Below, piece by piece: positions 9,686 through 53,058 of a stretch of 64,000 bases of DNA. Position 1 is the stretch's first letter. Each line of letters starts with the position of its first letter. Location: positions 992,001 to 1,056,000 of the forward strand of contig NZ_CP071596.1 of NCBI RefSeq assembly GCF_017357105.1, written 5' to 3'. A program made the translations under genes and the position numbers. The notes below the pieces were generated by a model. That model did not search any database. It saw nothing but the letters and a program-made list of their open reading frames with translations, and was not told the origin of the DNA. Source of the DNA: Natronosalvus caseinilyticus (GTDB lineage Archaea > Halobacteriota > Halobacteria > Halobacteriales > Natrialbaceae).

Positions 9686-9825
9686 GTCGACGTCTCTGGT
9701 CCACGGTGGGATAACCGTTGGGCGGTCATTTGCCGTGTTCTCGGCGCCGGGATTGTGTCATGACCTGTCGAACGTGGGAGCTGCTCGAGTGAGAACCGCT
9801 TCTGATACGAGTGGAAAAGGAACGT

Positions 9826-9923
9826 CGCCTCCCGGATTTGAACCACGGTCGGAGCAAAGCTCCTCCCTGATTCAAATCCGATCGGATGGATTTCTCTCGC
9901 TCACGGGTTGTTCGCGAGAGAAG
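9826..9923 (-). repeat. tRNA-Phe tail repeat unit
   Basis: 9826-9844 repeats 19 bases of the tRNA-Phe 3' end (true copy at 9927-9945). An inverted T-arm copy lies at 9869-9879 (GATTCAAATCC), forming a long stem with 9834-9844. A second perfect 9-bp stem (9892-9900 with 9914-9922) stops directly at the mature tRNA end. Bases 9862-9879 are identical to 52888-52905 in the tRNA-Ser array. Confidence 0.85.
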
Positions 9924-9997
9924 TGCCGCCTCCCGGATTTGAACCGGGGACAGCTCGATCTTCAGTCGAGTGCTCTCCCAGTCTGAGCTAAGGCGGC
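9924..9997 (-). tRNA. tRNA-Phe (GAA)
   Basis: A full cloverleaf of 74 bases. The 7-bp acceptor stem pairs GCCGCCU with AGGCGGC. The D-arm contains GGGAG, the anticodon stem is CUCGA/UCGAG with loop CUGAAGA (anticodon GAA), and the T-arm reads CCCCGGUUCAAAUCCGGGA. The discriminator is A. No CCA is encoded and no intron was seen. Confidence 0.96.
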
Positions 9998-12141: not shown

Positions 12142-12267
12142 ATGGGCTCGGGCGGGTTCGAACAACGCGAAGACGGTCGCTCTCGCGTTCGCTCGAGCGC
12201 TGCGACTTCTCTCGTTCGAACCGCCCTCGCGTACAGTTCTGTGACTCACTGTCGTTCGTTCCAGAAA
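12142..12267 (-). repeat. tRNA-Val tail repeat unit
   Basis: 12142-12163 is an exact 22-base copy of the tRNA-Val 3' end (true copy 12267-12288). An inverted T-arm copy follows at 12214-12226 (GTTCGAACCGCCC), giving a large stem-loop. The spacer between them carries AGACGGTC and CGACTTCTC words that recur in the tRNA-Ser array. The second stem next to the tRNA is weak here (about 5 bp). Confidence 0.8.
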
Positions 12268-12341
12268 TGGGCTCGGGCGGGTTCGAACCACCGACCTCGG
12301 CCTTGTAAAGGCCGCGTCATAACCAGCTAGACCACGAGCCC
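12268..12341 (-). tRNA. tRNA-Val (UAC)
   Basis: A 74-base cloverleaf with a GGGCUCG/CGAGCCC acceptor, a D-arm with GGUUAUGAC, an anticodon stem CGGCC/GGCCG enclosing UUUACAA (anticodon UAC, valine), and a T-arm GGUGGUUCGAACCCGCC. The discriminator is A. CCA is not encoded. Confidence 0.95.
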
Positions 12342-51285: not shown

Positions 51286-51663
51286 AGGTGCGTCACTGAA
51301 ATTCGTGTCACGTTCCGTGTCGGAACGGTCGGCGGATTTGCGTTCATACGAAATGAGACGCCCCCGACTCGGAAAGGTACATCGGATAGTATCGATCCGG
51401 TCGTCGGGCTCTCACAAGCGTCTTATCACTGAGCATGAACAAGGCGCCTGCGAACGTAGCGAGCGTTCCGCACTCGCCCAGTCACGAAACCGACGAGTTC
51501 GAATGATCTTGAGACATCTAACTCGTTCTGCCCGTCGATTTTCGCCTCGAGGGTCTCACCTAATGCGTTCATTTTTCGGGACTGACGGAGAATCCCCGAG
51601 GCTCGACCTCGAAACAATTCAGTACTCGAAGCAGGAGACCGCTCGCCGTTACATCTATTGCGT
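51286..51663. other. 378-base stretch without a convincing gene
   Basis: Between RlmE and the toxin-antitoxin genes. Short frames are out-of-phase in composition. A minus-strand piece (about 51515-51570) would read MNALGETLEAKIDGQNELDV, which looks protein-like for 20 residues but has no clear continuation and may be a remnant. GC content is lower than around it, fitting an old insertion boundary. Confidence 0.4.
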
Positions 51664-51687
51664 ATCGTAACGTGGTTAATCGTAACG
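51664..51687 (+). promoter_or_regulatory. Direct-repeat operator before the toxin-antitoxin operon
   Basis: ATCGTAACG occurs twice, at 51664-51672 and 51679-51687, with a 15-base spacing, and the second copy ends directly at the antitoxin ATG (51688). Such a pair could be the autoregulatory site of a ribbon-helix-helix antitoxin. Confidence 0.5.
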
Positions 51688-51981
51688 ATGAAAACGGTCA
51701 CTACGCGCATCCCGGAGGACGACGAGGAGGCCCTCGCCGAACTCGAGACGGAGCTGAGTGCTGATCGGTCGGAGGTGCTTCGCCGGCTGATTCGACAGGG
51801 CCTCGAAGACTGGCGCAAAGAGCGGGCACTCGACCGGCTCCGTGACCACCGCATTACGCTGCGGAAGGCAGCAGAGCTGGCAGACGTCTCGTACGTCGAG
51901 ATGTTGACCCTCGCTTCTGAAGAGGGGATCGACGTCGGGTACACGACGGACGACCTCGAACGGGACCTCGATCGCATCTAA
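51688..51981 (+). CDS. Antitoxin: ribbon-helix-helix plus UPF0175-like
   Basis: 97 residues. The first 45 residues have a ribbon-helix-helix pattern (TRIPEDDEEALAELETELSADRSEVLRRLI). The remainder (HRITLRKAAELADVSYVEMLTLASEEGIDVGYTTDDLERDL) matches UPF0175-type antitoxins. It should bind DNA and neutralise the partner. Its stop overlaps the toxin ATG by one base. The operon start carries a direct-repeat element. Confidence 0.85.
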   Translation: MKTVTTRIPEDDEEALAELETELSADRSEVLRRLIRQGLEDWRKERALDRLRDHRITLRKAAELADVSYVEMLTLASEEGIDVGYTTDDLERDLDRI

Positions 51982-52469
51982 TGGTCGTCGTCGATTCCTC
52001 CGCACTGATTCCGCTCGCATGGGTCGGACGACTCGACCTCGTCTCGACCGCATTCGATGATATTCGAACGACGGAAGCGGTTCGGGCGGAAGTCCTCACC
52101 GAAGGGAAGCGGGGTACTGCGACGCTCGACGAGTTTCTGGCGGACGTCGCCGTTCACGGAACGCCAGACGCAGCCGACGACGTGGCGTCGATGGAAGGAA
52201 TTGCAGTGGCCGACGCGTCAGTGATCTTGCTGGCAGCGGCTGATGAGGAGGTCCTTCTCGCTAACGACAAAGGGCTGCTCGAGGTTGCCCGAAGCCACGG
52301 CGTCGAGTGCTGGTGGGTGACGACGCTATTGCTCAGCTGTACAAGCGACGGAGATTTGACGGCGGAGGAGGCAACCGACGTCCTGTACGACCTCGTGAAC
52401 GAGGGAATGAACCTGCACCCGAAAGTCTACACGCAGGTGCAAAAGAAGCTCCGAGAGCTGGGGGACTGA
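51981..52469 (+). CDS. PIN-like toxin (DUF3368 type)
   Basis: 162 residues. A PIN-family pattern: VVVDSSALIPLAWVGRLDL at the start with Asp5 as likely metal ligand, TTEAVRAEV (conserved Glu near 37), ADASVILLAAADEEVLLANDKGLLEVA with Asp77 and Asp95 completing the acidic site. In UPF0175/DUF3368 pairs the protein is presumed to be a ribonuclease toxin. It is translated with its antitoxin through a one-base overlap. It is encoded about 500 bases from the tRNA-Ser tail repeats, a site favoured by mobile DNA. Confidence 0.8.
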   Translation: MVVVDSSALIPLAWVGRLDLVSTAFDDIRTTEAVRAEVLTEGKRGTATLDEFLADVAVHGTPDAADDVASMEGIAVADASVILLAAADEEVLLANDKGLLEVARSHGVECWWVTTLLLSCTSDGDLTAEEATDVLYDLVNEGMNLHPKVYTQVQKKLRELGD

Positions 52470-52662
52470 GTCAGTCGTCTCTCTCCCTCTCTTTCGTTCC
52501 ATCAGACCCCACCTCGAGTCTCGACTCCTCGGTTCGCCGTGCGTTCGAACGCTAGATGGTGGGCGCGATAGCCGGTCATGCTCGAGTGGACGCGCTCGAA
52601 GGGTAAGCGGTAAGGCTCGACGCAATCGATCCCGCCACTCGCGAGTTGCTCGCGACAATAGA

Positions 52663-52976
52663 CGCCGGGACAGGGATTTGAACCACGCGTAGACGGTCCT
52701 GCTCGCTCGCTTCGCTCGCTGTGCGGGCTCCGACTTCTCACGTTCAAACTCTGATTACGTCGTTTCGTGATTTCGGATTGCTCACGTCGCTACGCGCCGT
52801 TCACAGGACGTGGAATCACGAAAACGCCAAGACAGGGATTTGAACCGCGGTCGGACGTGCTCGCTCGCTTCGCTCGCTGTGCGCGACCTCCCTGATTCAA
52901 ATCCCTTCGTTCGCGTTTCTCGCGTCACGGTCGCTCGCGTCGCTACGTGCCGCTCGCGGGGGTTGTACGCGAGAAA
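52663..52976 (-). repeat. tRNA-Ser tail repeat array (two units)
   Basis: Two extra copies of the 16-base tRNA-Ser tail lie at 52669-52684 and 52832-52847 (true copy 52983-52998). Both are followed by one identical 25-base block (52701-52725 and 52860-52884). In unit two an inverted T-arm copy is at 52895-52906 and a perfect 13-bp stem (52914-52926 with 52967-52979) overlaps the mature tRNA end. Each unit is about 150-165 bases. Confidence 0.88.
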
Positions 52977-53058
52977 CGCCAGGACAGGGATTTGAACCCT
53001 GAATCCCGAAAGGGAACACGCTTTCCAGGCGTGCGCCTTACCGTTCGGCCATCCTGGC
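52977..53058 (-). tRNA. tRNA-Ser (GGA)
   Basis: An 82-base type II tRNA with a GCCAGGA/UCCUGGC acceptor, a long variable arm (UUCCCUUUCGGGAUU region) and an anticodon stem CACGC/GCGUG enclosing CUGGAAA (anticodon GGA). The T-arm is CAGGGUUCAAAUCCCUG. The discriminator is G, as usual for serine tRNAs. CCA is not encoded. Confidence 0.96.

Follow-up and report, generated by a model that had tools for sequence, protein, structure and literature searches.

The tRNA-Ser(GGA) gene of Natronosalvus caseinilyticus is followed by further copies of its own 3' end, and the question raised by this locus is what kind of entity these copies belong to. A preliminary description of the 64,000-nucleotide stretch of DNA in which the gene lies (the window) had likened them to the terminal repeats of Escherichia coli tyrT and proposed a mobile or regulatory RNA unit.

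The array behind tRNA-Ser(GGA)

Leftward of the tRNA 3' end, the gene being on the minus strand, we find two tandem units of the order A L1 A' L2 A, in which a palindrome (L1) separates the tail (A) from its inverted copy (A') and a second palindrome (L2) separates A' from a direct copy of A. All three tRNA genes of the window, Ser(GGA), Phe and Val(TAC), carry units. The features are:

52977..53058, minus strand: tRNA-Ser(GGA); every copy is templated by its 3' part from T54 onward (arm A)
52913..52979, minus strand: hairpin 1 of unit 1 (L1 cassette), with perfect 13-bp arms (52913-52925 and 52967-52979) and a 3-nt overlap with the tRNA 3' end
52896..52925, minus strand: A' of unit 1, inverted copy of the tRNA tail plus about 10 nt of flank (52967-52996)
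52845..52895, minus strand: L2 cassette of unit 1, type A, TCAGGGAGGTCGC...GTCCGACCGCGG; the same type stands at many tRNAs in other genera
52823..52844, minus strand: direct tail copy of unit 1 (T54 to 3' end)
52761..52822, minus strand: hairpin 1 of unit 2 (L1 cassette), 70% identical to its unit 1 counterpart (repeat D4)
52741..52752, minus strand: A' of unit 2, decayed (GAGTTTGAACG)
52683..52740, minus strand: L2 cassette of unit 2, of a type differing from unit 1 (GAGAAGTCGG...GGACCGTCTACGCGTGG)
52661..52682, minus strand: direct tail copy of unit 2 (repeat family D2)
12143..12267, minus strand: unit behind tRNA-Val(TAC) (12268-12341, minus), of the same kind
9824..9922, minus strand: unit behind tRNA-Phe(GAA) (9923-9997, minus), with hairpin 1, A', type A L2 and tail copy

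What had been read from the letters alone was right to within 1-2 bases in its coordinates. The two extra tRNA-Ser tails are real and belong to repeat family D2 (52660-52684, 52822-52846 and 52974-52998), and the 25-base block at 52701-52725 that had been assigned to both units does occur exactly twice in the window, starting at 52701 and 52859. The 13-bp stem is perfect and shares three bases with the tRNA 3' end, although it had been placed one base off the coordinates given above. The inverted T-arm copy is likewise present, starting at 52896, but had been drawn too short: the full copy (repeat I1, 30 nt, 83% complementary to 52967-52996) extends from the T-loop through a decayed acceptor part into about 10 nt of flank. 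Within the window, TTCAAATCCC is confined to the tRNA-Ser(GGA) array, with one occurrence on the plus strand and three on the minus strand. A search of the window with Rfam 15, above gathering score, gave no match except the three tRNAs. Two neighbouring small ORFs ahead of the array (51658-52469) resemble an antitoxin/PIN-toxin pair.

In E. coli tyrT, terminal repeats stand in tandem behind the tRNA gene, each with about 19 nt of the tRNA 3' end. The resemblance that had been pointed out holds, since each unit at tRNA-Ser(GGA) includes the tRNA tail and the two stand in tandem; it is a likeness of architecture alone. The tyrT repeats are known to us from a single locus, and we know of no inverted arm or T-arm-wide family in their case.

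Units in the genome, across haloarchaea and at a protein gene

When the flanks of the tRNA genes of the N. caseinilyticus genome were scanned, a copy of the gene's own tail scoring at least 11 was found downstream of 22 of the 43 genes and upstream of none (0/43). The best score in shuffled flanks was 10, below the cut-off, and chance is therefore excluded. In these 22 tRNAs the copy starts nearly always at T54 or one to two bases earlier, and 21 of the 43 genes scanned also have an inverted tail copy. Unit counts vary with the threshold chosen; at an alternative one, units are counted at 20/44 tRNAs in this genome and at 17 and 14 tRNAs in two sister genomes. Exact inverted T-loop pairs number five in the genome, all of them behind tRNAs or a partial tRNA. 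The units measure about 100-170 bp and have no gene inside, and their hairpin 1 stems, which begin at the tRNA end, exceed the length expected by chance (7.2 versus 4.6 nt). A variant class is seen at tRNA-Ala(CGC) of the same genome and at tRNA-Pro(GGG) of genomes G007 and G003, in which the inverted arm covers the acceptor end rather than the T-arm, L2 is GAACATCGCAAAC..GTTTGCTCAATC, and just the last 13-16 nt are copied.

An L2 core query (GAATCAGGGAG..CCGACCGTGGTTC), picked without any tRNA tail and searched in 84,980 species with one genome each, identified 57 loci, exclusively in haloarchaea. Of 59 L2 matches, 51 lie behind a tRNA gene as located by ARAGORN, all on the same strand as the tRNA, mostly 45-90 nt off and at 11 isotypes. 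The other eight comprise two cut by the locus edge, three behind a protein gene and three behind tRNA-Thr tails that resemble distal attachment sites, an integrated element having displaced the tRNA. L2 hardly changes from one isotype or genus to the next; it is the arms, direct tail copy and inverted T-stem, that follow the local tRNA. The tail copy agrees with the local tRNA at 9.1/11 positions (permuted 5.4, maximum 6.3) and the inverted T-stem at 3.2/5 (permuted 2.25, maximum 2.65; 2000 permutations each). The orientation of L2 relative to the tRNA is constant (51/51), hence A' is not a freely inverting site, and the idea that L2 might flip freely between A' and A was rejected on this ground. 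Viral contigs searched for exact L2 gave no match.

The genome-wide scan and the search across species together bear out a haloarchaeal family linked to tRNA 3' ends, as had been suspected; the blocks are neither scattered at random in the genome nor absent from relatives. The 25-base GCTCGCTTCGCTCGC block was rejected as a family marker, similar GC palindromes being found elsewhere (L268-L270, L273, L274 and L276), and the diagnostic parts of the family are the L2 ends and the T-arm copies. In some units, at no fewer than four isotypes (at least 4), the copied T-loop has a one-base C insertion (TTCACAATC). The inserted-C form (TTCACAATC or TTCGACATC) is seen at L102, L112, L113, L115, L116, L117, L123, L124, L127 and tRNA-Lys(TTT) of the N. 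caseinilyticus genome, and these units look as if they form a subfamily with a bulged C in the hairpin.

In Natronorubrum texcoconense, units, at one site in tandem, are found after a protein gene that ends TAT CGG TTC GAA CCG GTC TGA, which is a T-arm-type palindrome. We compared 30 orthologues of this gene, taken from within the family, which end in ...YRFEPV-stop on TAYCGGTTCGARCCG: three of the 30 have a unit at the motif (L277 in G011, L280 in G118 and, in tandem, L302 in G023), one has a remnant (L298), and almost all of the rest are empty. The three belong to three genera, and the copy at L302 repeats the local codon variant GAG. With units also placed after a protein gene whose 3' end reads CGGTTCGARCCG, what is targeted is a DNA motif rather than tRNA function. 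These comparisons show the target to be the palindromic T-arm motif GGTTCRAAYCC, which tRNA genes contain and a single protein gene imitates, and a tRNA-specific RNA role cannot account for the protein-gene units.

Gain, loss and exchange, and the arms of larger elements

Comparison of sister species reveals units that come and go as wholes. At tRNA-Arg(CCT) the site is empty in G003, where CGCCCG runs directly into TCAACG..., and filled in G000 and G007, where CGCCCG is followed by the unit, a second CGCCCG and TCAAC.... Such precise empty and filled sites, with the target restored, are seen both here and at the protein gene. A unit at Pro(TGG) is found in G007 alone and one at Ala(GGC) in G003 alone. 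In other cases part of a unit is replaced. Hairpin 1 and A' are kept and L2 is replaced at Arg(CCT) and Val(TAC) (identity 0.94 versus 0.54 for L2 at both), at Leu(TAA) (0.90 versus 0.62) and at Ser(TGA) (0.88 versus 0.53), and the opposite swap, with hairpin 1 and A' replaced and L2 kept, is found at Gly(TCC) (0.58 versus 0.95) and Met (0.53 versus 0.93). Leu(TAA) has two units in the N. caseinilyticus genome and one in a sister, and the lone unit could derive from a two-unit state via deletion between A' copies. These comparisons show that gain and loss at the tRNA end involve whole repeats and that L1 or L2 can be replaced with the rest unchanged; the mobility of the units and their target are well supported.

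Hairpins of the L2 kind are also found in larger elements. A 17.5-kb element at tRNA-Arg(TCG) of the N. caseinilyticus genome has an end that adjoins a tyrosine integrase gene (PF00589; C1:3514154-3515203) and reads as a hairpin (GAGGTTCTG..CAGGTTCTC), a T-loop-like GGTTCCAAATCC and then the tRNA tail. This element (L076, C1:3511601-3531600) has an apparent type I restriction-modification set beside the integrase, its ORFs of 990, 399 and 520 aa resembling HsdR, HsdS and HsdM (putative). Relatives of its integrase are present in 113/121 genomes of the family. This element and eight relatives share an attachment-site design. The nine loci (L229-L232, L257, L307, L308, L313 and L331), two of them with copies of one element in sister species, represent four families within the order; beside the integrase start the design usually consists of a GGGTGAGCG palindrome, an L2-like hairpin and GTTCRAAYCC or a close variant. 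The arm ends of L257 (GAATCAGGGA..GACCGTGG) match unit L2 type A and those of L331 (GAATCAAGGAGAGGTTCTG..CAGGTTCT) match type C. When arms were aligned to unit L2, shuffles did as well in 2/300 cases for L229, 0/300 for L231 and 7/300 for L232; L257, aligned over its whole arm, falls short of significance (39/300), its match being limited to the two ends. Among the L2 types, only A and C are resembled by integrase-element arms, with no partner for types B, D and others.

Most other relatives of the integrase have a short acceptor-end core without L2, as in SNJ2. In a tree of 47 integrases, with attachment-site labels assigned by eye and regular expression before the tree was built, the two designs are split by one change, compared with 8.4 for shuffled labels (0/500); the branch in question has moderate support (75/96) and the tree has long branches. 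These data establish the likeness of L2 to integrase arms: in larger integrated elements that encode one distinct subfamily of tyrosine integrases, an L2-like hairpin beside a T-loop core forms the attachment arm on the integrase side. The SNJ2 site is a 13-14-nt stem-free core (PMC8371274; also L259), and L2 was absent from the attachment sites of SNJ2 and of the integrase-bearing plasmids and viruses searched. As the short-core class lacks L2, SNJ2 itself is not the units' partner and was rejected as the partner integrase system.

At Pro(GGG) and Ser(TGA), as well as at Arg(TCG) in G002, an integrated element separates the tRNA from the units. The one at tRNA-Pro(GGG) of the N. caseinilyticus genome (L090, C1:2053851-2073850) is 19.6 kb long, with an integrase attachment core formed by the last ~12 nt of the tRNA and ORFs that look provirus-like (ATPase-like and large secreted ORFs; putative). 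In four genera (L021, L022, L023 and L025), TnpB-like genes of the IS1341 type follow tRNA-Ser(GGA) at a distance of a few hundred bases, at L023 after a truncated unit. An autonomous IS605/TnpB version of the unit was considered and rejected, as there is no second L2 half or tail copy past the TnpB-like genes in the stretch examined in the four relatives.

Nature of the units and their relation to known elements

On the sequence evidence above, the array is probably two tandem copies of a non-autonomous haloarchaeal miniature integrative element aimed at the T-arm. The units would be stripped attachment sites recognised in trans by T-loop integrases, with strand exchange across the 7-nt T-loop, which is near-identical in all tRNAs and would serve as the overlap. 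An overlap across the T-loop has been considered for other tRNA-loop integrases (PMC8371274). A unit would enter or leave at the T-loop, the tRNA being restored and the displaced tail becoming the distal copy, and a cassette swap would amount to addition of a unit and then deletion between A' copies. On reaching a different tRNA, the unit may have its A' matched later by hairpin (quasi-palindrome) correction, and its tail may be supplied by gene conversion from intact chromosome copies, haloarchaea being polyploid. The matching of A' to each new tRNA goes beyond standard integration and is the least understood step. A broader reading, which we advance tentatively, is of a gene-less minimal mobile DNA in which exchangeable palindromic cassettes lie between alternating copies of a recombinase core and the arms re-match themselves at any T-arm-like site, so that one family could occupy all isotypes with the tRNAs unharmed.

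A serious rival, if an unlikely one, dispenses with a dedicated enzyme: spread and swaps would come from microhomology-driven template switching or gene conversion at replication, with the 8-nt T-loop common to all tRNAs as the jump point, the L1 and L2 hairpins stalling the polymerase and quasi-palindrome correction maintaining the A' match. It accounts for copying exactly from T54 onward, for the match of A' to the local tRNA, for swap boundaries in the T-loop and for the long hairpin 1 stems that start at the tRNA end. It does not lead one to expect that the ends of L2 turn up again in the integrase-side attachment arms of larger elements or that L2 types are common to different genera and families, and the same protein gene being hit in three genera suggests sequence-specific targeting. 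That the units are instead passive relics, large tRNA-targeted elements repeatedly integrated, deleted down to solo-attachment scars and now immobile, we regard as improbable. Large elements at the same tRNAs do have L1-like and L2-like arms, and the integrated elements that set the units apart from the tRNA at Pro(GGG) and Ser(TGA) fit this history; independent deletions would hardly yield a standard size and order at about 20 tRNAs, tandem near-identical copies (L092 and L144) or whole-unit gains between sister species.

Of the mobile or regulatory RNA proposed in the preliminary description, the mobile half fared better. A functional trailer RNA made with the tRNA, acting in stability, processing, termination or in trans and with its hairpins under selection, could draw on a strong fold (mean z -3.7 over 20 hairpin-2 regions), on G-U wobbles that preserve pairing at Val tRNAs and on a sense that is always that of the tRNA. 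About half of the tRNAs nevertheless lack a unit, presence varies among sister species, and the T-arm-like motif is the sole feature common to tRNA genes and the protein gene with the same unit, which is thus not confined to tRNA transcripts; L2-like hairpins recur at integrase attachment sites, and there is no Rfam family. We consider such an RNA very improbable, and the regulatory trailer is unsupported.

Among known systems, the preferred reading of a miniature integrative element brings the units closest to the haloarchaeal tRNA-targeted tyrosine-integrase elements (SNJ2 or betapleolipovirus type and relatives), which also target the 3' part of a tRNA and leave a direct tail copy, one related integrase subfamily having the L2-like arm beside a T-loop core. 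Unlike SNJ2-type elements, the units are gene-less and small, with an inverted arm that corresponds to the tRNA beside it; as they encode no integrase, they are not autonomous members of the tRNA-site-specific integrative elements. CIMEs are cis-mobilizable elements that keep attL and attR, have lost the integrase and undergo tandem accretion (PMC5704250). The units are similarly without their own integrase, are bounded by putative attachment sites and accrete as tandem copies where a target gene ends, but CIMEs are decayed larger elements with a site each, whereas the units form a uniform two-palindrome family with exchangeable cassettes at about 20 tRNAs per genome. The MITEs, PATEs and SMRs of Haloquadratum are short, mostly gene-less mobile repeats with inverted-repeat or palindromic structure, of which PATEs and SMRs do not duplicate their target, nor does their description present them as tRNA-directed (PMC3119063); in contrast to these two and to IS605-derived repeats, the units carry a direct target copy of about 20 nt (22 tRNAs). 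No description of such units was found in the open-access papers searched, and they appear to be unreported.

The element stands at almost half of the tRNA genes in the N. caseinilyticus genome. If the preferred reading is true, it would explain the tail-repeat arrays at tRNA genes, the T-loop as overlap would let one site-specific system serve all tRNA isotypes, and the units would provide a natural model for cassette exchange mediated by recombinases. It makes two questions testable, namely by what means integrases change from one tRNA target to another and in what way short inverted arms keep their match to the adjacent gene.
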